From the NCBI RefSeq assembly GCF_000003815.2, contig NC_049986.1, positions 22,431,976 to 22,495,975 on the forward strand: 64,000 nucleotides of DNA, written 5' to 3'. A program made the position numbers and the translations under genes. Shown piece after piece: positions 1,429-60,522 of this stretch. The notes below the pieces were generated by a model that saw nothing but the letters and a program-made list of their open reading frames with translations, did not search any database and had not been told where the DNA came from. Each line of letters opens with the position of its first letter. The first letter of the stretch is position 1. The stretch is from Branchiostoma floridae (Eukaryota > Chordata > Leptocardii > Amphioxiformes > Branchiostomatidae).

Positions 1429-1439
1429 CTGTGAAAACA

Positions 1440-2458: not shown

Positions 2459-5400
2459 ATGTCGTCCTCAGCGGGCAGCTCCAAGCTGCTCCCTCGGGGA
2501 GGGTCGCACCACGGCCCGACTAAAATAGCCTGGAGCACCCGTTGCGATCACCTTAAGCCTCGGGGTGGCTTAACCGGGCGGACACGGGTCAGACGGCTGA
2601 AGCCTGGACACAAGACTGTGGCTAAAGTGCCGACAGAAGACACTAGCCAAGTACCGGTAAAAACTTTTTACTATTCAATAGAAAAGGTGGGATCTTTCGT
2701 CTTCCACCCGTCTCCGAAAAAGACATCGAACCCAATAACCCAGCATCTAGATTTAGATTTTAGACTAGAGTAGAAACTTGTCATATTGTCTGTTTGAATC
2801 TCTCATGTTACCGGCAATTAGCCCATGGGCAAGAATTTGCAATAAATTTGTTATTTTTCTTTTGAAAAATGATCCGAGAAGAAATTTAATTTGTTACCTT
2901 ATCCTAGTCCCGTGTCATGTGCCATGGTGTTTGTTAATATGTTCACATTGTGTTGTGGTAACCTACAGCGCGTATCCCATTCAAAGAGACGTACATGAAG
3001 GGAGTTTTGCATCCTTCAATATTTTTTTTCTATGTAGATCAGGATCACACGTCCCAAAAGATTTTTCATGTGGCGAGACTTTAACATACCGAAGGACAGG
3101 CAGGAACTAGAGGTACGTGTAGAATGCGGTCACTTTACCACAAAGACTCTCATAGTTTGTCTTTGTGTGGTTTGTTGACAGTGAATGGGAGAGGGGCGTC
3201 GTTTGCAGAAGTTGTATTGACACAACAAGACTTATAGCGACTTCCGTATGGTCAATTACACAGCTAGGTTAAGAACTTTTTTGAGAAAGGCTAACGTCAT
3301 ATGTGTGTTTGTATATTTTTGCGTGTGCATGTCTGTGTGTGTGTGTGTATGCGTGCATGTATGTATGTCTGTGTGTCTGTATTTCTGTGATCGCAAACGC
3401 ACACAATGCTGCCCTATCAGCGCTGTTCTATTTTCTATGGGACTAAAGGTATAAACAGGGTTCATTGCGTATTGCATATACATCATCATGCGATGTAAAA
3501 CTTGAGCGCCAGACTTTTCGTATTGCATTCTCAAAATCCCAGAGGGGTGAAATGACAGATATCACCAAGAACGGCAAGGAGGTTGATACCACCCTTGGAA
3601 GTGGTGAAGAAGACATCATCAGCCACCCTCTACAACCCCAGTACCACTCTGCTGTTCGGTACGTAACGGGTTGCATACATCGTGACTTAATTGGTGTACA
3701 TTATCTTTGTTTGCATCTTTACTCGGAGTCTGTCCGTATGTATATACCTGATAACTTAGAGTGATTTTAATATGCATTGTTAATGTTTGTATACAACCAA
3801 CACAGTTCAATTTCAATGGATATGCTCTATACATCTGACACTGCTTGTTGATTCTCAATAGAATTGAATGTCATGAATTTCAACCTTGACACCCGTGGAT
3901 GGATATGTAGATAACAAACATGTACTCATTCACAGACCATGCTGATGTTTTTTTCTGGTCTGTTGCCATTGATCAGTTTGTATTGGCACTACGTACATGT
4001 AATGTAATCTCACATAAACGATTCATTTCTAGGAGTGTTGCCTCTGAGGAGAAGCATCGGCCGCTTGAAGAAGATTCACTGTCCGAAGAAATCGAGCACG
4101 ATGTAACTGTGATATCAAGGGAGAAACGGGTAACTACACGTTTCAGTATTTCACATTACTATTTTTTTTTAATAGCTGTCCTCAAGCCTTGCTGTGCTTG
4201 ACTCACTCACACCTACCGTATACAGTCTTGTTAATTGACGTCATCCGCGCCATGTTGGATTATTGTATAGCGTACGTCTATAAACCACACAAAAATGCTA
4301 CTGTTTCAGCCAACATGGTCGTCGGAGGATTCAATTTATATATAATTAGTACGACGTCGATGACAGCCCTGTATAGCTACCTACATGTACAATTATCGAT
4401 GAGTTAAATGTGGTTGGCTTTTTAAGTATAATTTACAGCTTAACATTTACAGCCATTTGAAGTGGCGTGGGATTCGAACTCTCGACATTTAATTAAAGAA
4501 GTGGGGTCTATCTTCCTCAGACCTAGTGTACGGTACGTGATTTAAAAGCGTCTCCGGTGGCATACATAACCTTACATTTATTCCTCTTGCAGGCCTCGCT
4601 GAAAAGACAGCCGAGCTGCGATTCCCTTTTCACCAGGAAGCACCCGAAGCCCGCCGGCGTCTGGAGGCCGTACGGTCCGCCACTGTACGGGTACGGCTCC
4701 GCCCTGAACCCGCCGCGCAGGAAAGGGCCGGACACGCTGGTCATCCTCGCCGCCATCTTCTACTGCCTGGCCGCCCTAACAGCTGTGGTGTTAGCTGTTC
4801 TGTTCAAAACCAGCGTCGTGACATGTTAGCAGCCATGTTACTCTTTTACTTGAACGTATTGGACCATTGACAGTGCATGTTACGACCTATCAGAAAAAAT
4901 CTCAATAACGGTCCTTGACCCAGTCTGATCAATCGAAATCCAGTATTCATAGTACAAAAAGATCAGCACGTCTCGTATATACTTCTGACTTGACTCCGCT
5001 TGTATATCACTTTGTTCTTTTCTCATTCCTTTGCCTTCTTCATAATATTATTCTCCCATTTTAAAACCGTCCGTTTTTAAATACCCCAACAGTCCACACG
5101 CCCCCGAAGCCCGTGCCCGCGTGGGTTCAGCAGTTTTCCCCGGAGATGCAGAGGTGGTACCGGTTGGCGCTGGAAGGAGGGCGGGACGCATCAGAGATAC
5201 AGCCTCCCGGCACCGTGCAGCAGCCGGCCTTGCCGCCTCCTGTAAACGAAAGTGAGTTTGTCTGAGTCACACAAGAGCAGTATTGTTGGGTTTGACATTC
5301 GAAGGAAAAAGGAGCATGACGAATGGATCAATGTTGATCCGCTGGCGCACAGAGCTCCTTTTGAGACGTCAAGTGCAGTGACGTAAGATGATGTTATAAA

Positions 5401-8400
5401 CAGCGAGTAGATTATCATCGGACGTGAGTTAGTAGAGCACTTTGGACTAATGCTGTTGATTGCTTACAGCTTAAAGTCACACTTCTGAAATCGGGACTCT
5501 TTCAAGGCAACTTTAAAAATGTCTTTAGATTTTTGCCAAGCATTTTCGAATTTTTCTTATATATCTCAAGATCAAGTTAAAACATCTCAAGATGAAGTCA
5601 GAATATCTCAAAATTCAACACAAAATCTTAAGAATTTCGGGATAAATCTCAAGAGTTTTTCAATTTCTATTTTTTTTTGCTAACAGTAAATGACAGACAA
5701 CGATATTTCCTTCATTCACATCCTCACTGTCTTACAGAAAAAGCTTGTTCGAGGTTCGACGTGCGCATGCGGTATGTGGTGCCTTGTGGATGATATGTCA
5801 AAGTTGAAAGAACTTGACCATTCAAAATCTGTTGCCATGGGGGTCTTCAACTTCGACATGTTATCCACAACACCTCGAACTACACATGCGCACTTTACAT
5901 TGTTCACTGCTAACTAGCCTGCAGTCTCGACTGCTTCCGATCGACATGATAAAGGTATTTGCACGTCGCACTTCATATAACTAAGGGTACTCATTACTTT
6001 GTCTATTTTGACCGAAATGTTCTTCTGGTGCGTAAATGGAGCTATTCTGATCTATTAAAATGCGAAACCTAGCCTTATATCCAGCCGTATTATAGCTCTT
6101 GTAAATATTTGCGGGGAGGACAGAAGTGACTCGGTAGCTCTGATACGGCTGGATACCAGGCTATACAAAACCAACAAAAAGGGGCCTTGAATTTAATTTT
6201 TTTTTTAAATTTATATATAAATTTCTTTTCAGTTTGCGGCAACACGTCCCTAACCGAGTCCCTCCCAGACCTGCGTCACGGCCACTTCAATTGCACCAGC
6301 ATCGCCTACTACAACACCTACGTCACCATGTGCATTGCCAAGTGTCACGTGGGCTACCAGACCGATGACGCAGGCCTGCTGTTCTGCAACAGCGGCCGAT
6401 GGGCGCCGATCCAGCCCGAAGTCGTGTCGACAATCGTCGGCGTCGGTCGGGCTGCCGACACGATGCCGAACACCGACCCTCGGGCGTTAGAGTACCTCAG
6501 TATCCCCGACGAAATTTATTCTGACGTGGCTTTTAACATTTTAGTGAAGCTTGACCAAGTCCCAAACCTTTCTATTGCGGAGACGTATCTAAACATGATC
6601 TCGGTGGACAACATTGTTGATCTGGACATGATTCGGCAGTTGTTGATCTGGATCGGTCCATACATCATGGACATCGTCACAAACCTGGACTTCCTGGAGG
6701 TTCTGTCTCGTCTAGGTAGGGAGACTAAAGCCATAAAAGTTATTTTGGTGAAGACACAGTGTAAAATTACCTAGATCTTGATAATCAGTCTCTTTCGTGG
6801 TAAGTTGTCTATAACATTATTCTCCAAGTAGAGGTTGGGTTGCGGATATAGCAGATGTCAGGGTTTTTACCGAATTTTTACCGGCTCTCTCCCCTCAGAA
6901 ATCCTAACATCAACTATCTCCGCGAACCAACCTCTGCTGGGAAAATAGATAACATAGCCATAAGTGTCATACTCAACATTTCTTCGTTTATATTTTCTTG
7001 AGTGAAAGTCAGTAATGCCATAAATTAGCTTTGGCTTTTTGTTAACTATTTTTAAGTCTTCTGCGCCTTTAGTTTTTTTCAACCTTTATTTAGCCTTGAT
7101 TTACATACAAGTAGCCCTTCGGCCTGAGCTGGTTTTCAAGGGTTCACGGTTTGGAGCGGGTCCAGAGGTGATTTCATAACCCACAGTCATCAACAATGAT
7201 ACAAACTTTGCTATTCCATAATCTCTTAGTCCATAGTCAATCTTACCTATGGTTCATCTTGCCACTGTCTGTTTGCAGAGACGTTTGGTGCGACGAGACA
7301 TCCTGTTTGCAGAACCGGGATTTGTGGGGGAGGCTTCAAGGTACTTGTTCCTAAATTATTTAATTCAAACAGACATACTTTAAAAATAAGACTAGTCATA
7401 TGTATTTGAGTGGTATCACATTTCATAATGCCACAGACAAAAATTTACTCACAAGTGGTCGGCAAATGAACAGAGTCTGTTAAGCAATACATCAGTTTCT
7501 AAACATGACAAGAATGAAGAAAACGAAAAATAACAATGATAATGCCAACAGATGAAAAACGATGAAATAGCAGAAGAAAATAATATCGATTTTTAAGCAA
7601 AATCTTACTTTGAAGGAAAATCGACTAACGACCAGTCTTTCTTCTATTCGAAGAAAGTAGCTCATGGCCAAGTGAACAGCAGCACAACCACGTACATGTC
7701 AGAAGCCCGAGTGGTCTGTGAGCGAGGTTACCTGCCCCGGCACCCTGTACTGACGTGCACGGCTTCAGGACAATGGGACAAACCCGCACTGTGCGACCCA
7801 GGTAGGGTGTTATTTCATGTGATTAATTGTCAGAAGCCAGAGTGGTCTGTGAGCGAGGCTACCTGCCCCGGCACCCTGTACTGACGTGCACGGCTTTAGG
7901 ACAATGGGACAAACCCGCACTGTGCGACACAGGTAGGGGTATGCCATGTGATTATTATCATTAGACTCGTCACCAATGCTACCGATTAAATAATTCCACC
8001 TCTAAGCTCTGCTAGAAATTGACAAAATGCGCATATTCTTCTAAAAAAACACGTCTTTTGCACGAGTTCGAAAATGTTTGACAAATTTGAACAAATCTAA
8101 ACTCGGCACAAAAAGTTTAGAATATCAACTTCGGTTGATCATATTTCTGTTGTTTTTGCATCAATTTTCATGTATTATATATCAATAGAAAGCTTGTGTG
8201 ATTTTCTTTCCAATGGTATCAAGTTCAATATCATTACAACTCATAGAACAAGCATCAGACCTGCTTACCTGAGTGGATCACCAATAAAGTGCCCAAAATT
8301 TCCCCGCTTCTGTTCAACACTGTATCGTCCGGTTGTTATGGCCGCGGGTAACATTGATTCAATCAATCGTTTCTTCGTGTACCTTTGGTATACAGAACAT

Positions 8401-11400
8401 CCCAGTTTAATTTTAACATATTTGAGTAGAGTATTTTATGATTGTAAATTTATGGAACGGGCACCAGGCCTGTTTTCGTACAGGGTGGTCATAAAAATAA
8501 AGTGCCGCAATTACCCTACTAAAATCAAACACTCCATTCAGCTCATTTTGTTCCATCAATATTGACTTGTGAATAAATGCAAGTTGAATAAGCAGGACAT
8601 GTCAATCAAAGCCGCTGTTACTCTTTATTCAAGCAAACAGTTTGAACCAAGAGGTGACAGCCATAAGCCGTAGGAAGGCTATTCCACCCCAAGACTGTAC
8701 TCCAGCATCCTGGAGGTAGTCGGTGATGGTCCTTGCTATGTATGGACAGGTGTTTTAATCTTGCAGAATGGAATTTGGTCCAATATTTAAGATGTAGCAT
8801 AGTCCGACTGGATGGAGGATTGTGTCCCTTTATCTCACCACATTGAAGTTGCCTGGAATGATGACGAGTCTTGTTTTTCCTATGGCGGTTATACCGCCCC
8901 ACACTATGACGCTGCCTCCACCACCAAACGCTGACAGTTACTCTTGCCGTGTAAGCGTGCGGTTCTCCTTGCCGCCTCCACGCACTTGATTCGGCCATAT
9001 CCAACTGCCGAAAGGGCAGACATACTCTACTGAAATGTGCTAAAACAAACTGGTATGTTTGTATTCCAAACGTGATGTGAATAAAGGATTGACTTTGTCA
9101 CGGACACAGGCACCAATACCAACAGGACGATACAGTGTTGAACAGAATCAGGGAAATTTGGGCACTTTTTTTGTTGACCTTCTCCTGTAAGCAGGCCTGG
9201 TGTTCTTTTCATGAGTTTGCAGTCATAATAAGGTTAATACTATAGAAAAGAAAATCACACAAGCTTTCAATTGATATATAATACATTGAAATGTATGCAG
9301 AAATAGTGGAAATTTGATATTAGAGTTTATAAAGTTCCACTCCATGTATCAGGTAATCACTTTCAATTCTAATTTTTCATTTTAAATGTTGGTCTCCTCG
9401 TTCGTATGTATTGTTCACTGCGTAGTAGCCTGCAGCATACCTGAGGACCCCCCGCACGGCTCGTACCTGTGCCAAGGTCACGTGTTCTCGGACCGCTGTG
9501 ACGTCAGCTGTGACTTGGGGTACGTACCGGAAACAGACTACACCCTGGGCTGCAGCTGGACCGGAAACTGGACCGCCTTTCGCAGCGGGAACACGACGGA
9601 AATGGAAAATGCTGTATCAGCAGGTTAGGAAATAAACACGTCATCAACTTTCCTTAGCATTAGGCTTTTAAGTCATATTGAATGTAGTAAGAAAAGACTA
9701 ACTTTACCTACTGTCTGTACTGTGTATGTGGCACTGTGATATAAGTTACTAACTGGAGTGCAGTGCCACATTGTCTTCGTCTGGCCACAAGGAAATAGGA
9801 AAAAAATATAGATTTAGTATCCCAGAGTACATACGAATACGATTATACATAAAGATCTTCTTCGTGATAATTTTCATTTCATTAATAAAGGGTTAATGCC
9901 CCGGCCCGAGGTGTATATGGTGAGATAATCCCTNNNNNNNNNNNNNNNNNNNNNNNNNNNNNNNNNNNNNNNNNNNNNNNNNNNNNNNNNNNNNNNNNNN
10001 NNNNNNNNNNNNNNNNNNNNNNNNNNNNNNNNNACCTGCCTGGCCTGAATCTACGTGTTACGGCGTCATAACCAACGTGGAACGGGGCCTTCTGATTGGT
10101 CCGCGGCGCCTGGCTATATGATAATGTCCATTACACCATATTTGGCCTCTTCTTCATTTATCCCCCTCGGGAAAGAATATGCATCAAAATTATTATTGAA
10201 TAATTAAGAATATTACAACGTCGAGTTTGTCTCAACACTATGGTGAAATGAAATATCAGACTGTTTCTTTGACAGACGTCGTCATCCCACAGACTCTGGC
10301 TTGTATCATTGCTGACTGTGGGATCATTTCGGTGAGTATTTCTGATTCATGTAATCTCCACGCAGGTCTACCGGCGGCATAATACCCGCCTCACATTAGG
10401 CGCGATTCGATCGGAAGACTAGTTTACGAGCTCTACATGACATTTTCGTGAGTAAGACGTCCGGTGTTCTCACGATCATCTTGCGATTTTTAGGGATCGC
10501 CGGCAATGTTCAGGAGTCTTACGACGGTCGCGGTGCAGCGAAACATGTTCTTAACACAAGCGACAAGTCGCAGGAGATCTCCGAGATCGCAGAGCTCGTT
10601 ACCCAGTCGCAGATCGTGCGTGCAAATCGTGCGTACCTCGCAAGGGTATCGGTCAATAGTCTTACGTCAATCCAACGATTGATGACCTATAGGCGAGCAC
10701 AGACATAGTTATTAATCATCGAACGCAAATCGGATGGCGAACGCCCGTTAGTCGGGCGACGTTCGGGCGACGTTCACCCGCCTTCCGAGGTCATGGGAGG
10801 TTCATTATCATAGATCTATTCACCGTCGATCGCACGAGTCTCGCTTATATGTGAGGGGAACAGGTTTTGGGCGAAAAATACGCAAGACCATCTTAAGATC
10901 TTAAAATCAGCCGACCTTCCTGCGATCGCGAAGTACGTCCGAAGATCGTATATAATGTGAGGCGGGTATAAGGAATTAAGCTGACCAAGGAGTGTTCTGA
11001 GCCACCGGGGCTCATCCTTGGCCAGCTTAACCCCTTATGCCTATGGTAGATTTGCTGGCGATTACCACTCATGCACACTCATCCTCTGGTGGTTATTTCA
11101 GTTCTGCTACATTGCCCGCTAATGTGCTACATTGGTATATTTTCGTTATCAATATATTGATCTAACGAATGTACATTGATGAGTCACCGTTTTCTACCTC
11201 AATCCGTTACAATCCAGAGCAGAAATATCCTTAGTCTCTAAGCAGATGTGTCAGCTGGATAAAAAAAAGAAGAATTTGGCCAAATAGGGACAAATAAATT
11301 TGAATTTTTAGTCAGCCTTTCGCAGTCTATCCAGCTAGTGGCCGACAGTTCACTTTTAACTGCGACTAGACTTTTATTCCGAACTTAGCCAAAGCCCCCC

Positions 11401-14400
11401 TATTACTATTCGGCCAGGCGGAAGTCTGGTAGAGACTAAGAAATCCAGACAGTTGAAAACATTTCACTCACCTCCTCTGCACACAGACGCCCGCACACGG
11501 TGACGTCAACTGTACAGGTACGACGTACGGTGAGACGTGCCATCTCGCCTGTCATGACGGTTACGAACGGCTGAGCCGAGACAACCTCACCTGTCAGGTT
11601 CACGGAGACAGAGCCACCTGGAGTGGGGAACCAGAGTGTATTCCAGGTGACATGGCATACATTACCGGGACATTAATAAGTTTATTGCAAATTCCTGCAC
11701 GAGGGCTAATTGTAAGTGACAAACAAATGACAGACAAATAATGGTAAACAGTATAATAAGTAACTACTCTAGTCTTACATAAAGATGTAACGTATTGGGT
11801 TTGACTTCTTTTTCTGAGACAGTGGAAGACGAAAGATCCCACTTTTTTGTTATGTGTGAGTTTTGCGACTTTTAAAGGAGAGTAGTTTTCTTTTTGTCTG
11901 TAAACGTGTACCATAACAATGATATACTATTATGGTACATATATGATTTATCAAAAGGAATATTCCCTTACTCTACACAACGCATTTTTTCTTAGTCTAC
12001 AATGTAGATGAGGAAAAGATAGTACAACATATTATATATCATGCCATGGGAAGAGGCACAGCATTTCGGATACTTCTTTAGAAAACGAAGAATGCGTTCA
12101 ATATTTTCCAACAGTGAGTTGTGGAGCCCCTCCCGAGTTCCCCCACACCGCCCTCCAGTGCGCCAGCGGACGTACCTACGGGAACACCTGCGGAGTCACC
12201 TGTGCGGACGGGTACGAAGGAACGAACCACCAGAGTGTCACCTGTCACAGTACCGGCAACTGGAGCCTACAGGCGGAAGGTAGTAATCTCCAAGCAGATT
12301 CCACCGATGGCATTAAAACAGTAACATAAGCTGGGGAAGGAATTAGCCGGCAAAGGAGGATAAATTGCCCCAGATTATGTTACTGCCACCGGACATTATA
12401 TTAATGCCACCGGAGGAATCTGCTTGGAGATTAGGAAGGTTTTCCAACGACCTTTTCTGCTTAAAAGACTTTAAGATAGCACAGGTCGTATCAGCAAAAG
12501 CTTCCTGACTTCTACGATCCCCCTTCGCCCACAGGAAGGTCTGGTTGAAGCTAGCTATATTTTATACTACAGGGTCAATGTCTTTTCGCTGTATACGTAG
12601 TACTTCAAACGATGTTTCCAATGATATGTTGTGCATTTTAGCGCTCCAGCCAATTGTTGGTGGACCGGATCTGTTCTGTCAGAGGAAGGACTGTGCCAAT
12701 CTCTCTGTACGTACCCTAAAGCTCGTCTAAGCTTGCACAATAGCAGCCAAATGCGTTCGTTTTCATTGATGATAATTACCTCCATGAAAATTGGAGGTAT
12801 AGTTTTTGGTGTGTCTGTCTTTCTGTGGGATTGCGTTTCCGGATATTTGTGGTCAGTAGAACTTTAGAACCTCTGGATGGATTGTTATGATATTTGGTAT
12901 GTTGATAGGAGTTAGCAACACAAAGGTCAAGGTCGATTTGGGGCCCCTGGTATGTGACCTTGGTACTGCAACATATCTTTTGGGTTTTGTATCTTTTGTC
13001 CCGAACATGCTGTGTTCTTGGGTCTTGATATTTTGTTGGTAAATAGCTTTTGATGCGAGGAAAAAGTTGTGTAGTTTTGGTCCCTATAGGGTTCTGCTCT
13101 GGAACTACCGGGGGGGGGGGGAGGGTTGTAACAAATGTTTCTTCAAGCGTTGAGAACGACGCAAAGGACAGTGAAGACTATATTTCCGATCACACAGCCC
13201 CCTGCCCACGGCAGCCTGACGTGCAGCGGGACAAAGTACCAGGACTCCTGCCGCCTGACGTGTGAGCCGGGATACAAAGTTGCCGACGAGAGCGGCCATC
13301 TTCTCCACGGTCTCTTCAACTTCAGGTGCACGGCAAATGGACAATGGAACAAAAAGCCAAGGTGAAGGGTTTTATTCGACTAGTTTTTCTTGAAAGTAAC
13401 TATACATTGCCTTTGTCTGCGGTGTAGATTTTCAAACTCAGAACTAGTCCTTCAAGACATTTTTTTACATAAGTCTGTATCATCCGACATTGAAATAACA
13501 TTGTGTTTCTGGGATTGATACTTTCGGCGTGTTTGCTTGTTGCGCCAATGTATTTTGATGACTTAGTCGAATGGTCGGTGTAAATCTAAGCAAGCATGTT
13601 CGACGGTCCCACGTTATATAACTTCCTGGATCTAAGGCAGTCAAGAAAAAAGTAACTATTGGCTTTTTGTACGACGAATCTTCAATAAATATAATTTCTT
13701 GACCGTTTTTTTTAGCTGCGTCCCATCAGACTACTGCCAGCTCGGGCTGCACGACTGCCACCCTGAGCACGGGGTCTGCAGCCTGACGGGTCACCAGGCC
13801 TTCAGCTGCCGCTGCCGGGTCGGGACGGTCGGGAACGGGACGCACTGTGAACGGACCCTCTGTCCGCCTTTCCCGGTCAGTACGGTTTCAACATCAGGCG
13901 CTGCTAATCGCACCGCCACGAAACACTCAGACATACACATGCACATGCACTCACACAAACACAACCAAAACGACAATTCAGATATTGAAGAAATATCGTA
14001 CAGCTTAACTCTGCAGTTGGCGAGAATGCTGAATAATCTGCAGTATTACATATTTTATATATTGTAGACTAAAAGAAGTTTCATGCATTTTGAATGCCAT
14101 CTATACACTACCGTGTTTCAAGGTGCCAATCGTGGTGTCATCGTAAGCACCAACTCATGTTCCTCACTGCTGCACATTAACAGGTCACTGAACCGGAGAA
14201 TGGGTTCTTCTCGTGTTCTATCCCGACATCCGGCTCCGCAGCCGACACCTGCCAATCAGCTGACAGCACACAGCCGGAGTACGAAGTCGTCTGCGTGCTC
14301 CACTGTAACCATGGTTACGACAGGCTGATCTATGCCGAGTACTCCTGTGGACACGATGGGAACTGGGACATTCCTTTCGACCCGAAGAGCCCAGGAACCA

Positions 14401-28900: not shown

Positions 28901-29856
28901 CAGGACCCTCATCTCACAGCTTGTGAGCTTCCTCTCCTGTCTATAATCACAAATGTTTCAAACGGTCAACGAACTATCTCCAATTCTAGGCGTGTGGTGC
29001 CCGGCCCTTTCAAGCCCCACCAATGGAAGGATGTCCTGTAACAGCGGATACTCCTTCCGGTATCCCGAGACCTGCACCTTCAGATGTAACCATGGTTACC
29101 ACCTGTCTGCCGGCAGTACCAGTCGGACCTGCCAGGCGGATGGGAAGTGGTCGGGCAGAGCTGCCAGATGTACGGGTAACATATTTTACTCCATACCACA
29201 GTTATTGGAGTGAAATATAAACACATTTCACTCCATATACTAGAGGTATGAGAAGGAAATGTATTGTTTTTTTCTAATATTCTAATAGCCTTTTTTGCAC
29301 CGAGGTTTGAAATATGTGTAACATTACGATATTTAACAAAGAAGTCTAAGTTTTCAGTTTAACTTAGCCAATGCTGACCAATACCGATAACACTACAATG
29401 AACTACATCAATCCTCTCTCCGAAATAGGTTGCCCAGACGGGTACAATTACTACCGGCGAAGCCAATTCTGCTACAGGGCCTTTAATCAGCGGAAGAACT
29501 ACAACGATGCAGCCGCGACCTGTTCTTCTGATGGTGGAACTCTCGCCATGCCCCGTAATGCGGGCATCAACGCGTTCCTCGTCGACCTGAAGAACGCTAT
29601 GGATAACACCGCCTTGTTCTGGTTCGGCTTGACGGACCGCGCCACAGAAGGCAGCTGGGTATGGGCTGATGGTGTTGAACTTGCCAATGAACATTTCAAG
29701 CAGTGGGGTCCAAGACAACCAGACAACGCGCATGACAACGAGAACTGTGCGCATTATTGGCAAAGAAATCACGAGCAGGTAGAAAGAAGGAACAGGTGGA
29801 ACGATCTTTTGTGTTCTGAAACCTTTCTGAAGTTCATTTGTCAAGTCGGTACCTGA
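19670..29856 (+). CDS. Type II membrane sushi-EGF-C-type lectin receptor, copy B
   Basis: Exons: 19670-19957 (exons 1 and 2 fused), 20388-20470, 20650-20734, 20913-21144, 21480-21638, 21869-22339, 22658-22719, 22952-23099, 23191-23388, 23668-23723, 23967-24126, 24425-24589, 24913-24977, 25328-25491, 27184-27343, 27685-27910, 28152-28346, 28990-29175, 29429-29856. The total is 3531 nt, 1176 residues, in phase throughout. Module order equals copy A. The cytoplasmic tail has acidic SSESDDEDIP and the conserved KRQPSCDSLF just inside the membrane; the helix LVILAAIFYCLAALTAVV follows. Oddities are loss of intron 1, a CTLA-type longer sushi spacing in exon 18 (two extra residues), an antisense LINE in intron 15 and a LINE fragment in intron 18. 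The lectin motif is QPD. Likely a functional paralogue. Confidence 0.82.
21733..21844. mobile_element. MITE in intron 6 of copy B
   Basis: 112 bp with ends taatccccaagcagatctat and atagatctgcttggagacta; same family as 12284-12433. It stops 24 bases before exon 7. Confidence 0.7.
23774..23897. mobile_element. MITE in intron 11 of copy B
   Basis: Inverted ends taagcctaatctcca and tggagattaggatta, 124 bp; no ORF. Confidence 0.6.
25640..27025 (-). mobile_element. 5'-truncated LINE (reverse transcriptase) in intron 15 of copy B
   Basis: A 436-codon open frame (25668-26978) opposite to the host gene, with homology starting about 15 codons earlier. Visible are NYRAISLLS, GFRSGRGTVDA, FIDFKAAFDTVWR, GVRQGCLMSP and the catalytic ERYADDTTL, then GRPPKRWRDQIEKD near the C-terminus. 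This covers reverse transcriptase and the C-terminal region of a non-LTR retrotransposon. The endonuclease part is missing, as expected for 5' truncation. Clade not resolved from sequence alone. The frame is intact, so insertion is fairly recent. Confidence 0.85.
28610..28945 (-). mobile_element. LINE 3'-end fragment in intron 18 of copy B
   Basis: Two adjacent minus-strand frames encode pieces typical of a retrotransposon C-terminus: LRRAVGRTKMTRFKND, QRNQWFGHLIRMP and ERRLYIS. A frameshift separates them. It ends about 45 bases upstream of exon 19. Confidence 0.6.
29429..29856 (+). CDS. Copy B exon 20: C-type lectin domain, QPD type
   Basis: Complete lectin domain from CPDGYNYY to FICQVGT. 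The sugar-site triplet is Gln-Pro-Asp at 29716-29724, and WND is kept. In studied members QPD shifts preference to galactose-type sugars. Compared with A there is an extra Asn-Glu before HFKQW and an insertion of about eight residues around NHEQVERR just before NRWND, that is, in the loop beside the binding site. Confidence 0.85.
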
Positions 29857-34606: not shown

Positions 34607-34627
34607 CTAGCTTCCAGCATATTCGCT

Positions 34628-35493
34628 NNNNNNNNNNNNNNNNNNNNNNNNNNNNNNNNNNNNNNNNNNNNNNNNNNNNNNNNNNNNNNNNNNNNNNNNN
34701 NNNNNNNNNNNNNNNNNNNNNNNNNNNNNNNNNNNNNNNNNNNNNNNNNNNNNNNNNNNNNNNNNNNNNNNNNNNNNNNNNNNNNNNNNNNNNNNNNNNN
34801 NNNNNNNNNNNNNNNNNNNNNNNNNNNNNNNNNNNNNNNNNNNNNNNNNNNNNNNNNNNNNNNNNNNNNNNNNNNNNNNNNNNNNNNNNNNNNNNNNNNN
34901 NNNNNNNNNNNNNNNNNNNNNNNNNNNNNNNNNNNNNNNNNNNNNNNNNNNNNNNNNNNNNNNNNNNNNNNNNNNNNNNNNNNNNNNNNNNNNNNNNNNN
35001 NNNNNNNNNNNNNNNNNNNNNNNNNNNNNNNNNNNNNNNNNNNNNNNNNNNNNNNNNNNNNNNNNNNNNNNNNNNNNNNNNNNNNNNNNNNNNNNNNNNN
35101 NNNNNNNNNNNNNNNNNNNNNNNNNNNNNNNNNNNNNNNNNNNNNNNNNNNNNNNNNNNNNNNNNNNNNNNNNNNNNNNNNNNNNNNNNNNNNNNNNNNN
35201 NNNNNNNNNNNNNNNNNNNNNNNNNNNNNNNNNNNNNNNNNNNNNNNNNNNNNNNNNNNNNNNNNNNNNNNNNNNNNNNNNNNNNNNNNNNNNNNNNNNN
35301 NNNNNNNNNNNNNNNNNNNNNNNNNNNNNNNNNNNNNNNNNNNNNNNNNNNNNNNNNNNNNNNNNNNNNNNNNNNNNNNNNNNNNNNNNNNNNNNNNNNN
35401 NNNNNNNNNNNNNNNNNNNNNNNNNNNNNNNNNNNNNNNNNNNNNNNNNNNNNNNNNNNNNNNNNNNNNNNNNNNNNNNNNNNNNNNNNNNNN
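34628..35493. other. Assembly gap (866 N)
   Basis: Hides the 5' part of the zinc-finger gene and the sequence immediately upstream of copy C exon 1. Confidence 0.99.
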
Positions 35494-35525
35494 CTTCCCT
35501 TTTTCCTTTCCTTCAGAAGAGAAAA

Positions 35526-38500
35526 ATGTCGTCACCGGGTAGCAGAGACATGCTCCCTCGGGGCAGGTCAACTCACGGCCCGACTAAAACAGCCTGGACC
35601 ACCCGGTGCGACCACCTGCTTCCTCGGGGAGCTGGGCGGACTCGGAGCAGACCACAGAAGCTTAAGGCTAGACACAAGACGAGGACAACATCGGGTGCAA
35701 AGGACATCAGCCATGTACCGGTACCGGTAACAAATGTAACCTTTATGCAGGTCTATTTACTTTGCCCCAAAAAAATCCCCTATTTCTATTATACCTTGTA
35801 TAGTATATTATGTTTTATCTGTATTTGTCAGTACAATGTGTAATTTGCTTCTCGCTCACGAGTTTTTACAGCTTTCAGAACAGGAATGTTTCATTGCCGC
35901 ACTACTGATTTATAACTGCAAAGTAATTTTTGATGGAGGTACTTGTTGTTAAAATTTAAGGAAATTGAAATTGGATACAACACATTGCGGATAAATGATA
36001 ATTTGATAAAAGTAGTGTCAATTTGGCAATGTTCATGAAAACATCCTAGGTCACATTTTGCTAGATTTGCTTAAGTTTCGTGGTTGGAATCAGTATCCTT
36101 AATGTTTTCATTTCATGTCGCTCGTCTGTCACTAGACGAATGCAAGTTGGCCAAAACTATGGGCAAATGTCAGTGTGAAAAAGTCCGTTATTGGTACTAA
36201 GAGACTTTCGCGATTTCTAAAGTTAACACGCCGTATCCGAGGGGAGCGTAAGGAATATTCAATAGTGACCAATCGTTTCATATCCTCCCTAACCGTCAAT
36301 AATTTTCTTCCCAGGCCTCGCGCTCGTCAACACGCCCCCAAAGTTCCTTCACGTGGAAAGACATCTCCGTACGGGAGGACCGTCAGGAACCCCAAGTAGG
36401 AAATGTTCTTGTTTGTTTTGTAGCGTATAACCAGTCGCCCATCTCACGTCGCAGTAGGCTTATTTTGTAACTGGATGTGTGTCTATAATTTTGTGTCTAT
36501 ACACGCTGCAATATGCACTTTTCAGAGCAGATTGAGTGTTATGGCACCCCGAATGGTGCCTCTTTTAGTATGTGTTAGTGGGTGTGTGGTGTGTGATATG
36601 TACATAGCAGCCATAAACTTTCCATTACCAGCGGATATGCGCATTTTTATATCGAGTGTACAATTAAAGACAATGTCATGTATATATTTATTAAGCACAT
36701 AAAACACCGTGCCGTACAATACAATGGCACGTCCAGTTTTACCTACCTGGCCCTTTTCCATGTCTTAGACATTGGAATCCAGCAGTAAAAGTGACGACGA
36801 AGACATCCCCAGAGACCCTACACCGTCTCAGAAGCTCCCAGATGATCGGTACGTCATAGGTTTTTCCATATTCTTTCAATGGTGGAGTTTTAATGACTTT
36901 TTACCTCGTCAGATGCAATCGTTCCTTTCAATCTATGATAAGAGGTAACAACATAAGAACGTAGAACAGTGTCTATACTCGCTAAATCATACCTGTTTCA
37001 AGGTGCGTTGCCGTTGACGAGAAAAAAGAACAACTCCATTGCGAAGAAACCGACGAAAAGATGTCTGTAGAGTCAAAGGTGGAAAAGGTATTGAGTGCAG
37101 TTTTATTCTACTTTACTGTTTGTCACTTTCTCTACAGAATTTCTGTTCTTTATCTCAAGTCCCTGAAAGGGATTAACATACGAATAATTACTTTTTTCTC
37201 AGTTCCTTTTTATCGTAGACCCAAAAGAGTCTAATACTTGTTATTCTTGTAGGCCCCACTGAAAAGACAGCCGAGTTGTGACTCCCTCTTCACCGGGAAG
37301 CACTTGAAGCCCACCGGCGTCTGGACGCCGTACGGCCCGCCGCTGTACGGGTACGGCTCCGCCCTGAACCCGTCGCACAGGAAAGGGCCGGGCACGCTGG
37401 TCATCCTCGCCGCCATCTTCTACTGCCTGGCCGCCCTGACTGCTGTGGTGCTCGCTGTCCTATTCAAGACTAATGTCCTGTCGTGTGAGTAGAGTGGGTT
37501 AAAGGCTAGCTTCTGTCATCTTCTGCTGCCTTACCACTGACGGTGTCAATGTAGCAGTTATGGTCTACCAAAAACGGTTCCTTACCAAAGAGCTTACATT
37601 CATTTTAGCTTGTATCTTATCACTTTTGCCACAAATGTATTAAACCCCATTTGGTTCTTCTGATTAGGTAGAAGCTGTTTACCGAAAGATCGTGAAAATG
37701 CTAACTTTGCTTTGATCAAACCAATAACTACTCTTTTTCCTGTCATATATCTTCTGCATCTATTGTAGTATTCCACTCCCGGGAACGTTGAATCTCTTGT
37801 ATTTTTTTATTGTTTGACAGTGTACACGCCCCCGGAGCCAGTGCCGGCGTGGGTTCAGCAGTTTTCCCCGGAGATGCAGAGGTGGTACCGCTTGGCGCTG
37901 GCCGGAGGGCGGGACGCGTCAGAGATACAGCCTCCCGGCACCGTGCAGCAGCCGGCCCTGCCGTCTCCTGTGGAAGAACGTAAGTCTTTCGACCACTAAT
38001 TTCTGAGGCATACAAGAAGAGAGTAGACCCGTCCGGGCAACCCGCCCGTGATAATTATGATGATAATGAGTCACATATGAGCACAATACATCAGCTCTGC
38101 TACGTTACCTTCAGTCACTTCTGAGTCTCAGTGTTCCAGGCAGAGACCAGTACGGCAGAAGAGATAATAGAGACGAGATGACTTGAATTTTCTTTAATTC
38201 TTTCCAGTTTGCGGCAACATGTTTCTTCCCGAGACCCTACCAGACCTACGTCACGGTAACTTCAGCTGCACCAACATCGCCTACTATAACATCTACGTGC
38301 GCATGTGCATCGCCAAGTGTGACGTGGGCTACCAGACCGATGACGCAGGCCTGCTGTTCTGCAACCGCGGCCGATGGGCGCCGATCCAGCCCGAAGTCGT
38401 GTCGACACTCGTCGGCGTCGGTCGGGCTGCCGACACGATGCCGAACACCGACCCTCGGGCGTTAGAGTACCTCGGCATCCCCGACGAAATTTTCGCGGAC

Positions 38501-41500
38501 GTGGCTTTAAACATTTTAGTGAAGCTGGACTACGTCCCAAACCTTTCTATCGTGGAGTCATATCTAGACATGGTCTCGGAGAACAACATCATCGATTTTG
38601 ACATGATGCGGCAGTTGTTGATCTGGGTCGGTCCAAACATCGAAGACATCATCGCCAACCTGGACTTCCTGCAGATCCTATCTCGTCTAGGTAGGAAATA
38701 AAAAAAAGCCAGAAAAAAAAAAACATTTTTTATGAAGGCACCATATAAAACCAAGAATATGTATTTAAATTGCAAAAATCAGCTTCTTTTGCGTCATCTT
38801 TTCGCAACGTAGTGATTCTATCAAAGACATTTGTTATCTATCAACAAAGATATCTACAGGCCGAAAATGTCGGCAATGACTGTGGTATTATATGAGTAAA
38901 CGCAAATCATATCTAACCTAATCTTGTGTAATTTGACACATTCTGTCTGCCTGTTTGCAGAGACGTTTGGGGCGACCAGACATCCTGTGTGCAAAATTAT
39001 CAAGTGTGGGGAGGAATCTGAGGTACTTATTTCTAATGCCTTTTGTAAACAGCTATGAATGTGAGGCATAGACATTAACAAAGCTGTACCTAAGTCTATC
39101 TGCAATCAAACTAACTTAAACATTATCTGTTCATTAGGGAAATTGATCAGAATAAAACATATGCATAGTTTTAATTGCTAAAACAGGTAAAAAAAATCGC
39201 TAAAGAAACAGCTTCCAGTCTTTGTAGAGGAAACAGGGTTTTCTTTCATTGACAGAATTTATCTCATGGCCGAGTGAATAGCAACACAACCATGTACATG
39301 TCAGAGGCCAGAGTGGTCTGTGAGCGAGGCTACCTGCCCCGGCACCCTGTACTGACGTGCACGGCTTCAGGACAATGGGACAAACCCGCACTGTGCGACC
39401 CAGGTAGGGCATTGATATGATATTTGTTTACTTCCAGATCTGATTTCCAATTAGAAATTTGGTCTTATTGTTTGTACGCAATTTACGCAGTGACCTGTAG
39501 CATACCTGTGGACCCCCCGCATGGCTCACACCTGTGCCAGGGTCACGCGTTCTCGGACCACTGTGACGTCATCTGTGACGTAGGGTACGTACCGGAAACA
39601 GACGACACCCTGGGCTGCAGCTGGACCGGAAACTGGACCGTATTTCGGAGAGGGAACACGACGTTGAATGGAACTGCTGAATCAGCAGGTTTGGGAAATA
39701 CTACACATTTACTCGATTTGTGTTTTCCTCTTCTTCTTTAATTTATATACATACAATTATATACTATTGGAATTGTGTGTTATCAGCATGTTACACCATT
39801 GATTCCGACATGAAGTTGCTCTGTGAGCATTGTAGATCGTTTTCTTTTGGCAGACACTGTTACTCCAACGACTCTGGCTTGTGTCATCGCCGACTGTGGA
39901 AATGTTACGGTGAGTAGTTTATCCATCTGGCAAAGGGTTAATACTTCAGTCATGCTTGCAAAAAAATCATTATTTCATCAACATTGCCTTGTTTTTTTTC
40001 TAGTTACTCTATTTGAACCTATTGCTACACATGAGTCTTAGAGTTGAAAAATATTTTATTCACCTCATCTGTACACAGAAGCCCGCGCACGGTGACGTCA
40101 CATGTACAGGTACGACGTACGGCGAGACGTGCCATCTCACCTGTCATGACGGTTATGAACAGAGCCAAGACAACTTCACCTGCCAGGTTCATGAAGTCAA
40201 TGCCTTGGCCATCTGGAGTGGAGAACCAACATGCATTCCAGGTGATTTGACTTACGTTACTTGGAAGACACTATACTGTTGTGGTACATATGTATGATTT
40301 GTTCCTAAATGAGAACATGGATAATTGGTCCTTCACACTAAAATCGAATTAGCAGCAATCAAGAAGAACCAGTCGGAATGACGAATTTGCAAAATTCATG
40401 CCACATTCGGGGCCATTCCGAGTGGGACTTCCAAATGGACCTTATATCCCCTTCACACAAGAAGGAATGAGCCAGAATACCGTCAGAATAACTATTTACA
40501 CTTCGAAGTCCAAGGAATAAATGACCATTCTGACGACATTCCAACTCATTCTTGATCTCGCGCGAAGAGGCCTTTAGACACGCAGCCTTCCGGATTTTTG
40601 TAAAGAAACTAAGAAGGCATTGAAAAATTTTTACCAGTGAGTTGTGGATCTCCTCCTGAGTTCCCCAACACCGCCATCCAGTGCGCCAGCGGACACACCT
40701 ACGGGAACACCTGCGGAGTCACGTGTGCGGACGGGTACGAAGGAACGAACCTCCAGAACGTGACTTGTCACAGTACCGGCAACTGGAGCTTACAGGCGGG
40801 AGGTAGGGTCTACTGTTGCTTTTACAGCTACCCTTTCTACTAGAGTCCAGTTCATTGTATAACTGTTATATAGTAAACCAACTTGCATATTTTATGCAAC
40901 CTTTTGCTGAAGTAATTGCTAACGCTGTCCCTCTATGATTCCAGCGCTCCAGCCAGTTGTTAGGGAACCAAATCTATTCTGCCAGAAGAAGGACTGCGGC
41001 AATCTTCATGTATGTAATGTAAAGCTAAGCTAATTGAAGTCTAGGCATAAAGTGCCAAATACAAAATCATTGACTCGAATCATCCAGGCTATGGTCTCCG
41101 CCTTCGATAGCATACAAGCCTCAGAAACGTGAAGTATTTATTCTTATTAAAGTTTTATCTAACATCAATCAGAAGAACTGCGGACAGAACTATCTCAAAT
41201 TTTGCGCAAAAGTCAGCGCAATGAATAGAGATCAACTGAAAATTCACGGTGTGCTTCTCCTTTGTGTTGGAACAAATCTCAACTTAAAGACTATATATTC
41301 TATCAACACACAAGAGGTTTCATTCCGACGGACGTTTGTCTTAACACACAGAACCCAGCCCACGGCAGCCTGACGTGCAGCGGGACAAAGTTTCAGCACT
41401 CCTGCCGCCTGACGTGTGAGCCGGGCTACAAAGTTGCCGACGAGAGCGGCCATCTTCTCCACAGTCTCTACAACTTCAGGTGTATGGCAAGTGGACAATG

Positions 41501-44500
41501 GAACAACAGGGCAGGGTAAATATCCGCGCTTTATACATGCAATTCCTGATATGCCTCATTCAAGGTTTTTGTAGTGGCTATATAACAACACATGATACGA
41601 CATTAGAATAACACGGCGTTTTCGGGCCCAATCCATTCGGTTGGTCAGCAAAAAACGGCACTCGTGCAGCATCCTCTATTTCGGTTTTGCTATTTTGTAT
41701 TCTGACAAATCAGTCGGACTTAAGGTCTTCAACTAGTCAGAGTAATCTAATTGATACAGTTAAGTGAACCATGAACACGCCCTGTTCTGCAGCTGTGTCC
41801 CGTCAGACTACTGCCAGCTCGGGCTGCACGACTGCCACCCTGAGCACGGGGTCTGCAGCCTGACGGGTCACCAAACCTTCAGCTGCCGCTGCCGGGTCGG
41901 GACGGTCGGGAACGGGACGCACTGTGAACGGACAGCCTGTCCGGACTTTCCGGTCAGTAGCGGCCTGCCTTCCCTTTCCAAAAAGCCTATAAGATTCGAA
42001 GTTGTTTCTAACGGAGTAAGGAAATTAGACTGGTGCCCACGACTTGAAACTGAAACCTGACTAGCTTTCGAGTGGCATTTGCCATTTAAAGGAAAGCATG
42101 TTAGATTGTGTAGGAAGACTTGAATCCGCTGATGAACAGAAGGATAAATGATTTGCTGCATCTCTGTAATGAAAAAAATACGACGCGTTTTAAATAACAC
42201 ACGCTATACATGCATGTCTCTCGCTGCCACATCTCCACAGGTCGCTGAGCCGGAGAACGGCTTCTTCTCGTGTTCTATCCCGACATCCTCAGCAGCTGAC
42301 ACCTGCCAATCAGCCAACAGCACAAAGCCGGAGTACGAAGTCGTCTGTGTGCTCCACTGTAACCATGGTTACGACAGGCTGATCTATGCCGAGTACTCCT
42401 GCGAACAGGACGGGAACTGGACTATTCCTGTCGACATAAACAGCGTAGGGACCTCACCTTGTTTAGGTAAACCTTACTTCCCCTGTGATACTGTTCACCT
42501 ACTTTACAATTGAGACAGTCAGCAAATTTAACTGTGTGATGATCATACACCAATCAAAAGGTCAAGATCTCAATTTTCTTTAGCTTCGACACTGTAAATA
42601 CTTTTCACAACACCATTGTCCAGTGCTTCAAATATTGACAGATAGTGAGAATTTTGGGGATAGAAGTTTACAATGACAATGACAATGACAATGATCTTTA
42701 TTTGCATGACCTTGCCCATAGGCTAAATGCAGTAGTTACATAAAACTTTGCTGTAAAGAATCTTTACAGTGGCAGAGACAGAACAACTAAGGCTATGCTA
42801 CACTATAAGTACATCTATCGTTTACAAAATAGTCAAATATGTAATGCTATACTATTCTACAATTTACATGTCTCTTTTCTCTTCTTGAAACAAGTGTATA
42901 TGAATTCACAGAGTTTTTGCAGTACAATGTTGTCAGATGATTTCATTATGTATACAAAAAGCTCATCTTTTACTAACTGTTTAGCTCGTGTATCAAAATT
43001 CAGGGCATTAATAAAAGAGTTACGTATATCACTATATAACTCACATTCCAATACAAAATGAACTTCATTTTCAATATCTTTGGCGTTACAAAGTGTACAG
43101 ATTCTATCACTCGGAGGAGTCCGCTTGTATCTTCCTACTTCTATTTGTAAAGGGTGATCACTAATTCTTAATTTAGCCATGGCTCGGCGATGGCTGAAAT
43201 TATGTATATTTAGGTACTGTTCTCTTTCGTAGGTGTCTTTGAACTTCCTGTACGTTCTTAGTTTGTTTCCTTGATTTTTCTTTTTTCCATAAGAGTTGAA
43301 TTTGGAATAGAAAGTCTGTAGAAATATGTCTTTCAATCTTTGTTTCACTTGCGACTGAGCTGATGGTATATTATAGTCTTGGTTCAACAGTAGGTACCCA
43401 TAACCAGACTCCTCGAGAATCTTACTTACATTTGAAAGCCAACATGGTACCTTACGTCGGTGTAGATCTTGTTGTACAAGGAGTGCTTGATATTGTAAAC
43501 TATTTGTTGGTACTTCTCTAGTTAACCTGCTATAATAAGAGTAGAGCCTGCTGTAAGCCTCGATCCGCAAAGGAAACCTGCCAAGTTCCGCTCTTGTGGC
43601 GAGGTTACTAGCATTTCTTCTTACTCCAATGATAGCTTTACAGAATTTCAGATTATGCTTAGTAAAAGTATACATGTACTCAGATTTTATGATGTAATGC
43701 TTATCAAAGCCTGTTTTGTATTTCAGCTGTGAAATGCTCAAACATGTCCAGTCCCAAGCACGGCATGATAACGTGTGACCGCAACTACAATTTCCGCTAT
43801 CCCGAGGCCTGCAACTTTGCCTGCGACCGAGGCTACAAGCTTACTCACACAGACAGCCGCGAGAGACATTGTCAAACTGATGCAACATGGTCAGGAAACA
43901 ATGCCGAATGCATCGGTATGGGTAACATGTACAGAAACTTGATTTCATATGATAGAACCATGGTTTCAATATCACGTAACCAAAACCTGCTATAAAATCT
44001 TTTATACTATGAATTGATGAAAGGCGCTGAGAAAACGAAAATTATTGGACGGGTGTTTATAAGTTACACTTTCAAGTTGAACATTTTTGGATTGTTTAGA
44101 TTTTCTGTTCCAGCTGTGCCGTGCCCGACCCTGTCCAGACCTAGGAATGGAAGGATGTTATGTAACAGCGGATATTCCTTCCGCTATCCCGAGACCTGCG
44201 CCTTCAGCTGTAACCATGGTTACCACCTGTCTGCCGGCAGTACCAGGCGGACCTGCCAGGCGGATCGCACGTGGTCGGGCAGCGCTGCCAGATGTACGGG
44301 TAACATGTTTCACTTCATACCACAACTATGAGAGAGGCATCTATTGTTTTTCCTGACGTTCTTTATTTTGCTTGAAGGGGGGGGGGGGTCGACATATACG
44401 TGTACGGTGCTTATCAAATAAGTGTGATGTTTTCATTCAGTAACCATTAATACTGATAAAAACCGATTGATTGTAATACAATCACCCATCTTCTCTCTAA

Positions 44501-44911
44501 AAAAAAGGTTGCCCAAACGGGTACGATTACTACCCACCGAGCCAGTTGTGCTACAAGGCCTTTGATCAATGGAGTAACTATGACGATGCTGTCACGAAAT
44601 GTTCTTCTCACGGTGGAACTCTCGCCATGCCCCGTGATGCTGGCATCAACGCGTTCCTCATCAACCTGAAGAATGCCGTGGATAACAAAGCCTACTTCTG
44701 GTTCGGACTGACGGACCGCGCCAGTGAAGGCAGATGGGTATGGGCAGATGGCGTTGCTCTTGGACATTTTAACCGGTGGGGTCCAGGAAGACCCGACAGC
44801 GCGACCGACAATGAGGACTGTGCCCTTTTTTGGCCAAAAATAGACAACATGTGGAGCGATCTTCCGTGTTCTGCAACCTCTCTGAAGTTCATTTGTCAAG
44901 TCGATACTTGA
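35526..44911 (+). CDS. Type II membrane sushi-EGF-C-type lectin receptor, copy C
   Basis: Exons: 35526-35750, 36315-36395, 36769-36848, 37003-37087, 37253-37484, 37821-37979, 38208-38690, 38961-39022, 39256-39403, 39491-39688, 39854-39909, 40079-40241, 40638-40802, 40945-41009, 41352-41515, 41793-41952, 42241-42466, 43727-43915, 44114-44299, 44508-44911. The total is 3531 nt, 1176 residues, in phase. Exon 1 could instead end at 35726 (donor gtaaca), giving 1168. The order of modules equals copies A and B: cytoplasmic tail, helix, stalk, unknown helical domain, sushi array, EGF-like exon 16, sushi 17-19, lectin. Exons and several introns (2, 5, 8) are closer to copy B than to A. The lectin triplet is RPD with WSD, so canonical calcium-dependent sugar binding is doubtful. 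An antisense LINE sits in intron 17 close to the exon 18 acceptor. Confidence 0.82.
40330..40570. repeat. Inverted-repeat element in intron 12 of copy C
   Basis: Contains ccttcacac twice, and an inverted pair aagaaggaatgag/ctcattctt with gtcagaat/attctgac. Probably a MITE; termini not resolved. Confidence 0.4.
42659..43664 (-). mobile_element. LINE C-terminal fragment in intron 17 of copy C
   Basis: A minus-strand open frame of about 270 codons (42857-43664), homologous by eye to the end of ORF2 at 58312-59299: FCKxIxGVxRN, RAELG, a Cys-His cluster (CTLC...EVHFVLEC) and LQxLCEFIxxCFxKR. The element ends in a (CATTGT/CAATGA)n simple repeat at 42672-42698. It is 5' truncated, and its 5' end stops about 60 bases before exon 18 at 43727. 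Confidence 0.75.
44508..44911 (+). CDS. Copy C exon 20: C-type lectin domain, RPD/WSD variant
   Basis: Complete lectin fold from CPNGYDYY to FICQVDT with all structural cysteines. The sugar-site triplet is Arg-Pro-Asp (44789-44797) and the second calcium motif is Trp-Ser-Asp. Both depart from the ligands known to hold the sugar-site calcium. Ligand binding, if any, is probably not of the classical type. Confidence 0.85.
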
Positions 44912-60517: not shown

Positions 60518-60522
60518 AATAA

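Follow-up and report, generated by a model that had tools for sequence, protein, structure and literature searches.

A predicted type II receptor family of Branchiostoma floridae with a conserved membrane scaffold and an exchangeable C-terminal tip

Three tandem genes of the lancelet Branchiostoma floridae (NC_049986.1, positions 22,431,976-22,495,975, forward strand; these 64,000 nucleotides (nt) are referred to as the window) encode the modules known from the vertebrate selectins, i.e. a C-type lectin, an EGF, sushi repeats and a single membrane helix, with the helix towards the N-terminus and the lectin at the very end. A preliminary description of this DNA took them for 'reversed selectins', and the question raised by the locus is whether this is what they are. 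The reading that we favor, with a probability of roughly 0.72, is a family of single-pass type II receptors in which a conserved scaffold carries an exchangeable tip.

Comparison of the window with itself yields three collinear tandem copies, A (2459-16393), B (19670-29856) and C (35526-44911). Gene models were obtained by aligning the conserved blocks between copies and joining them at AG/GT borders (in-silico splicing). Each copy has 20 exons, the introns are GT...AG in 57 of 57 cases, the phases agree at every join, and the proteins of 1181 (A), 1168 (B) and 1168 (C) residues each end in one terminal stop. Exons 1 and 5-20, that is 17 of the 20, can be aligned as DNA across the three copies. 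Exons 2-4 of A form the less certain part of the model, placed by splice sites, phase and size: exon 2 matches C and B weakly (E=1e-4 and E=0.06, respectively), and exons 3 and 4 could not be significantly matched to B or C by DNA alignment, although their counterparts in B and C do have matches in other family copies. The choice of donor is not unique for exon 19 of A, set at GTGGGT because the GTAACA used in B and C would break its frame, and for exon 15 of C, set at GTAAAT.

Pairwise protein identity among the three copies is 76-82%, and the ratio of nonsynonymous to synonymous substitution rates (dN/dS) over all codons is 0.35-0.46; hence the copies evolve as coding sequence, and both values together place the gene models far from chance. 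By parts, dN/dS is 0.05-0.35 for the helix exon, the stalk and the EGF versus 0.46-0.48 for the lectin, whose dN (0.18-0.19) tops all other parts apart from exons 1-4 in the comparisons of A with B or C. The existence of three complete 20-exon paralogues, as first described, is confirmed, all the evidence being DNA sequence, and the family array continues outside the window. In copy A only, the second half of exon 9 is tandemly duplicated (7697-7954, 131 bp unit) and open in frame, possibly an extra exon or a dead duplicate.

Concerning the domain architecture, all three proteins comprise, from N- to C-terminus, about 190-210 residues predicted to be cytoplasmic, one helix, a stalk, the module encoded by exon 7, a row of sushi modules with an EGF in its middle, and the lectin. 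The whole-protein Pfam scan was run on copy A, where it finds eight sushi stretches (E=3.9e-52) and Lectin_C at residues 1070-1178 (E=1.4e-17); the sushi modules of B and C were assigned by alignment to A. The EGF is assigned from its Cys pattern together with Pfam scores below the cut-off, namely EGF_3 at E=0.0066 in full-length A and, for the EGF exon alone, 25.4 bits (E=1.7e-05) in A and 24.3 bits in B against a cut-off of 28.5. In all three copies this EGF, encoded by exon 16, sits within the sushi rod and is followed by three sushi exons (17-19) before the lectin. The modules listed in the preliminary description are all present, and the helix does lie in exon 5 with Cys-rich modules only after it. 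A strict mirror image of a selectin is not found, since three sushi modules separate EGF and lectin and the lectin is not selectin-like by sequence.

Exon 7 encodes 157-161 residues with a sushi-like Cys spacing in the first half. Exon 7 of A, the one scanned among the three copies, has no Pfam match up to E=1, and that of a distant paralogue at C8:0.62 Mb (megabases; C plus a number denotes a contig, the window lying on C8) gives a sushi match below the cut-off (E=0.0089). AlphaFold models for the three window copies show a mean predicted local distance difference test (pLDDT) score of 44, with the second half helical at low confidence, a quality insufficient for a fold search.

Calcium-dependent sugar-binding lectins are marked by EPN/QPD-type plus WND-type motifs, where EPN goes with mannose-type and QPD with galactose-type selectivity. 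These motifs were read in four lectin tips: A has EPN + WND, B and the two-tip gene described below have QPD + WND, and C (RPD + WSD) departs from both types. When the lectin of A was compared with solved structures, the top chains were LY75, PLA2R, MRC2 and collectin-11, and no selectin occurred among the best 60 of 158 solved relatives (copy A only). The ranking favors multi-lectin chains, the best single domain of LY75 scoring 24.5 bits and collectin-11, with one domain, 72.4. Full-length copy A has E-selectin as its best solved-structure match, and the best stretch (residues 906-1046, E=5.3e-23) corresponds to sushi modules. A truncated, interrupted remnant of a lectin exon is also present at 229-510 (+), about 4 kb downstream of the lectin of the upstream family neighbour (C8:22427960). 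As a claim about the family, 'reversed selectin' is rejected on the EGF position and the lectin relatives: a convergent surface layout stands as a reading, whereas 'selectin module set, reversed' does not stand strictly.

To what, then, do these genes belong? A genome search with exon 7 returns 21 matches, 17 of them strong (E<=2e-43). Of the strong ones, seven (A, B and C among them) occupy C8:22.32-22.47 Mb and two C8:24.39-24.42 Mb; C16 holds two, C175, C7, C15 and C164 hold one each, and the last two form a 53%-identical pair at C8:0.62-0.64 Mb. The four weaker matches comprise a diverged copy on C1 (32%), a piece at the end of C175, a partial copy at C8:19.50 Mb and a chance-level match. 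In 16 of the 17 strong copies the helix exon precedes exon 7 by 0.7-2.5 kb, the same number of helix-exon copies being obtained genome-wide at E<=1e-8 (n=16); the exception is C7, where none was found in the fetched 30 kb, which include 200 N. The EGF exon lies 3.4-7.5 kb downstream of exon 7 in 17/17. The helix exon of the C8:0.62-0.64 Mb pair, at 43-47% identity, still has LKRxPSxDSLF, a YGPxxYGY stretch and the basic run before the helix. The membrane scaffold is a conserved, defined family with a private module, and the conserved juxtamembrane stretches, predicted to be cytoplasmic, suggest regulation from inside. Among the 86 of 157 matches listed (overlaps counted) from the open-licence literature of PubMed Central (PMC), no title or abstract start describes this scaffold family, whose proteins may well sit unnamed in public annotation. 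A further copy at the end of a contig (C175:153881-157446, minus strand) has a TGA in its EGF exon and is probably decayed or cut.

The scaffold does not always end in a lectin, which is no fixed part of it. Among the 17 strong copies, eight have a lectin only, three a VWA only, one a VWA fragment and one both, and in four no tip was recognised. For the lectin, 150 of 1198 candidates obtained with the lectin of A were scored, all 150 at E<=1e-20; the best nine (E<=3e-53, at least 69% identity) all lie on the same strand, 6.1-17 kb downstream of strong exon-7 copies, and matches 10-12 (C18, C2 and C3; 61-65%) lie on contigs without an exon-7 match, each beside further lectin matches. A Pfam-confirmed VWA follows the last sushi exon in C7, C1 and the C8:0.62-0.64 Mb pair. 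A search started from the C7 VWA, with 150 of 193 candidates scored, gives five at E<=1e-20, all of them 6.4-12.2 kb downstream of an exon-7 copy (four strong ones plus the diverged C1). These tips are recognised by both the Pfam profile and the DxSxS motif: C7 (9.3e-32), C1 (3.7e-21) and C8:24.427 (4e-30) have DVSGS, C8:0.645 Mb (E=8e-24) has DITWS and C8:0.632 Mb, a piece of 113 residues (E=6.9e-10), has DITGS, a T replacing the first S of the motif in the last two. C15 has a VWA fragment only (E=3.8e-5), and no VWA remnant was found in the window at E<=1e-3.

From this distribution, the tip appears to have been swapped during the evolution of the family while anchor and stalk stayed. The VWA occurs in both of the deepest lineages, C1 and the pair at C8:0.62-0.64 Mb, from which we infer that the change probably went from VWA to lectin. 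Three observations on the surroundings of the tips are added here. The C8:0.62 Mb copy has more than 12 open reading frames (ORFs) of calcium-binding-type EGF between sushi exon 17 and the VWA tip (C8:625980-631453), and reads as the same scaffold with a much longer stalk. Eleven ORFs of near-identical EGF units occur after sushi exon 17 of the plus-strand copy on C16 (C16:18272802-18276999), an array that may be part of a different gene. The C164 copy is followed by two Cys-bearing ORFs without a Pfam match (C164:112805-113300 and 115406-115835), which may represent a tip of a third type or belong to a neighbouring gene.

The gene at C8:24.417 Mb bears directly on how such a swap could proceed. 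At C8:24.4265-24.4284 Mb, a VWA ORF with its own stop is followed 0.9 kb on by a lectin ORF with its own stop, each behind a phase-1 acceptor (read by eye). Exons 5-10, the EGF exon and both tips stand in order on one strand, with 11 kb from exon 7 to the lectin; these parts make up the model, exons 11-15 and 17-19 not having been seen. As read, a transcript of this gene could carry VWA or lectin, not both, and the gene is apparently a snapshot of the head exchange. The foremost alternative, to which we give somewhat less than even odds, is that the second tip reflects an artefact of assembly or recombination, or an exon in decay. It draws on the fact that the two-tip arrangement occurs in one gene only, and the polyadenylation-like hexamers do not discriminate: one ATTAAA follows the VWA stop, against a background of about one per kb, which is uninformative on alternative last exons. 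Against it stand the two acceptors in the same phase and the state of the domains, both of which are intact (Pfam 4e-30 for the VWA, 2.1e-17 for Lectin_C) and 70% identical to the VWA of C7 and to the lectin of A, respectively. The stronger proposal, that mutually exclusive last exons let this gene switch tips by splicing and that the window array descends from a two-tip gene that lost its VWA exon, is put forward as a tentative and rather doubtful one.

A broader alternative is that the window genes are ordinary shuffled members of the large lancelet repertoire of C-type lectin and sushi proteins, with no special meaning. The repertoire is indeed large, with 1565 first-look C-type lectin candidates in this genome, and an excerpt of a published survey counts 300 multi-domain C-type lectin genes in B. 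floridae (PMC10140915). Against this alternative, which we consider improbable, stand the combination of a private module with a conserved membrane exon in 16-17 loci and the tips recognised so far, which are the VWA or one lectin subfamily.

Regarding the orientation in the membrane, a type II topology of A, B and C is well supported by sequons, Cys distribution, hydropathy and the basic stretch. The sole strongly hydrophobic helix is encoded by exon 5: its mean hydropathy over 19 residues is 2.73-2.78, compared with 1.22-1.69 for the next best window. The first 58 residues contain no hydrophobic stretch, the maximum for 19-residue windows with start positions 1-40 being -0.52 to -0.72. N-glycosylation sequons number 0 before the helix versus 11, 11 and 15 after it in the three copies, and Cys residues 2-4 versus 65-66. 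The basic stretch on the N-side of the helix is PRRKG in A and B and SHRKG in C, in agreement with the preliminary description. Its N-terminal anchoring with a C-terminal, membrane-distal lectin agrees with the predicted topology.

A type I or secreted protein would result if a missed 5' exon encoded a cleavable signal peptide, the exon-5 helix then being internal or a second segment. The ATG that opens exon 1 is kept in all seven copies read (A, B, C, C7, C15 and the two on C16) and is preceded in all seven by an acceptor-like AG (by eye), so that an upstream exon exists or existed. The ATG follows this AG at 4 nt in five copies but at 9 nt in two, a difference that breaks a shared upstream frame, and the 90 nt upstream of the ATG contain in-frame stops in 4/7 copies (B, C15 and both C16), are mostly N in C and remain open in A and C7. 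Together with the lack of sequons and the few Cys residues before the helix, this makes a signal-peptide exon, one of two findings named in the preliminary description as speaking against it, quite unlikely, save that the frames of A and C7 stay open. A non-coding 5' exon is likelier, the chief point against it being that the upstream frame of C7 reads hydrophobic. Least probable of all is the other of these findings, that exons 1-6 form a small membrane protein and exons 7-20 a separate secreted sushi/lectin protein: the two parts are unlike in character, and intron 6 of A (981 bp) holds one signal-peptide-like ORF of matching phase, but the exon 6/7 junction is phase 1 on both sides in A, B and C, the intron of B and C is only 230 and 228 bp long and yields no such ORF, and helix exon and exon 7 are linked in 16/17 strong copies, the 53%-identical pair included, so exons 1-6 and 7-20 are best kept as one unit, as originally drawn.

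The type II receptor with an exchangeable tip has to be weighed against several observations that count against it. First, the whole case rests on DNA sequence. Exons 1-4 are weakly conserved (dN/dS of 1.08 for A vs B, 0.79 for A vs C and 0.46 for B vs C), so the model is less secure there. Concerning topology, the net charge of the 15 residues flanking the helix on its N-side and C-side is +2/+2 in A, +3/0 in B and +2/0 in C, hence the charge rule alone is weak for A and would favor type II only in B and C; moreover, the open upstream frame has an in-frame ATG at 2402 in A, and is hydrophobic in C7, without an ATG in the stretch read. Concerning the tips, the copies with none recognised are C175, C8:22.381, the minus-strand copy on C16 and C164; the first two were judged by genome searches alone, which would miss diverged tips, and the sequence downstream of the last two was inspected. 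The plus-strand copy on C16 was counted as a lectin copy although no exons 18-19 were detected in it and the stretch from exon 17 to the lectin holds an EGF array. Finally, the scaffold tree built on exon 7 is poorly resolved, with 2 of 15 inner branches well supported, and a concatenated tree that we rooted on C1 places the VWA copies C7 and C15, at low support, among those with a lectin. The number of tip exchanges is hence not countable from the scaffold tree; several exchanges or gene conversion are possible.

In the mechanism that we propose, the uncleaved signal-anchor helix of exon 5 would leave about 190-210 residues in the cytoplasm, while the Pro-rich stalk, the private module and a rod built from some eight sushi modules and one EGF would extend outside and present a calcium-type C-type lectin at the tip. 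The most likely ligands of this lectin are glycans on microbes or on other cells, which would fit an immune or adhesive role, and the EPN, QPD and RPD differences among the tandem copies would spread sugar specificity over the array. The scaffold would remain constant between the most diverged paralogues, with a VWA tip, and the window array, with a lectin tip, the exchange plausibly passing through a gene with both tips as alternative last exons at a phase-1 intron, of the kind seen at C8:24.417 Mb.

Set beside known systems, the family resembles several of them in part. Selectins are type I proteins in which the EGF directly follows the lectin, and they bind sialylated or fucosylated ligands and mediate rolling adhesion. 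The window genes share with these group IV proteins a membrane-distal lectin, but show the opposite topology and order, with the lectin in the last exon and the helix starting at residue 192-210; their single EGF is embedded in the sushi rod away from the lectin, the lectin itself is not selectin-like, and they add the private exon-7 module and a long N-terminus predicted to be cytoplasmic. According to an excerpt of a report on Fugu, group IV selectin genes have the lectin in a 5' exon and the helix in a 3' exon (PMC514892). The type II C-type lectin receptors (groups II/V: ASGR, DC-SIGN, natural killer (NK) receptors) offer a likeness in their cytoplasmic N-terminus, signal-anchor helix and terminal lectin, features predicted here as well, and A and B share with them EPN or QPD plus WND. 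Their neck is a coiled coil or short, without other folded modules, whereas here it is composed of eight sushi stretches (in A), an EGF and the private module.

The highest-ranked solved relatives of the lectin of A, within the best 60 of 158, are members of the mannose-receptor family (LY75, PLA2R, MRC2), which are type I multi-lectin proteins, and collectin-11, the collectins being secreted collagen-like lectins. SVEP1-type proteins unite VWA, EGF and sushi as the VWA-tipped paralogues do, but SVEP1 is secreted, much larger and has a pentraxin domain. Among invertebrates, furrowed/CTL15, the 'insect selectin', also joins a lectin, many sushi modules and one helix; an excerpt of a published description lists one F5/8 type C domain, eleven CCP, one lectin, one helix and no EGF, and reports that no signal peptide was found in TcCTL15 (PMC9954269). 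Compared by module list alone, and as far as that excerpt goes, the F5/8 type C domain there stands against the EGF here.

The coordinates of the three genes are collected in Table 1. Elsewhere in the window, an ORF upstream of gene A (1019-1513, minus strand) has a borderline LDL-receptor class A match (24.2 bits, cut-off 24.1), and intron 15 of gene B carries an inserted reverse-transcriptase ORF (25668-26978, minus strand; RVT_1, 436 residues). Between genes B and C lies a C2H2 zinc-finger ORF (32630-34384, minus strand; 584 residues, up to 20 matched stretches), near an N gap at 34628-35493. A long interspersed nuclear element (LINE)-like ORF of 890 residues with endonuclease and reverse transcriptase (60465-63137, minus strand) stands beside an ORF with a GDSL-lipase match below the cut-off (63094-63885, minus strand).

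Table 1. Exon groups of the three tandem genes, in window coordinates.
Feature	Position	Strand	Basis
Gene A exons 1-4, predicted cytoplasmic N-terminal part, ATG 2459	2459-2656, 3038-3112, 3543-3658, 4033-4129	+	gene model
Gene A exon 5, LKRQPSCDSLF, YGPPLYGYG, PRRKG, predicted membrane helix (protein 210-233)	4593-4824	+	gene model, hydropathy
Gene A exon 6, Pro-rich stalk, predicted membrane-proximal	5093-5251	+	gene model
Gene A exon 7, family-private module	6233-6715	+	gene model, genome search, Pfam
Gene A exons 8-11, sushi	7279-7340, 7654-7801, 9426-9623, 10276-10331	+	gene model, Pfam
Gene A exons 12-15, sushi	11487-11646, 12115-12279, 12642-12706, 13198-13361	+	gene model, Pfam
Gene A exon 16, EGF	13716-13875	+	gene model, Pfam below cut-off
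Gene A exons 17-19, three sushi	14184-14412, 14786-14974, 15183-15368	+	gene model, Pfam
Gene A exon 20, terminal C-type lectin with stop, EPN + WND	15990-16393	+	gene model, Pfam
Gene B exons 1-4, predicted cytoplasmic	19670-20734	+	gene model
Gene B exon 5, predicted helix (protein 192-215)	20913-21144	+	gene model, hydropathy
Gene B exon 6, stalk	21480-21638	+	gene model
Gene B exon 7	21869-22339	+	gene model, genome search
Gene B exons 8-15, sushi	22658-25491	+	alignment to A
Gene B exon 16, EGF	27184-27343	+	gene model, Pfam below cut-off
Gene B exons 17-19, sushi	27685-29175	+	alignment to A
Gene B exon 20, terminal C-type lectin with stop, QPD + WND	29429-29856	+	gene model
Gene C exons 1-4, predicted cytoplasmic	35526-37087	+	gene model
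Gene C exon 5, predicted helix (protein 197-220)	37253-37484	+	gene model, hydropathy
Gene C exon 6, stalk	37821-37979	+	gene model
Gene C exon 7	38208-38690	+	gene model, genome search
Gene C exons 8-15, sushi	38961-41515	+	alignment to A
Gene C exon 16, EGF	41793-41952	+	alignment to A
Gene C exons 17-19, sushi	42241-44299	+	alignment to A
Gene C exon 20, terminal C-type lectin with stop, RPD + WSD	44508-44911	+	gene model

Read as a type II receptor family with an exchangeable tip, these genes would provide a concrete case of a receptor family changing what it recognises, in which anchor, stalk and junction phase are kept and the terminal exon is replaced, and the standing two-tip gene makes the exchange step directly testable. 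A selectin-like layout would here have been reached with the opposite topology and a different kind of lectin, so that the layout, and not the ancestry, may be what selection favours.

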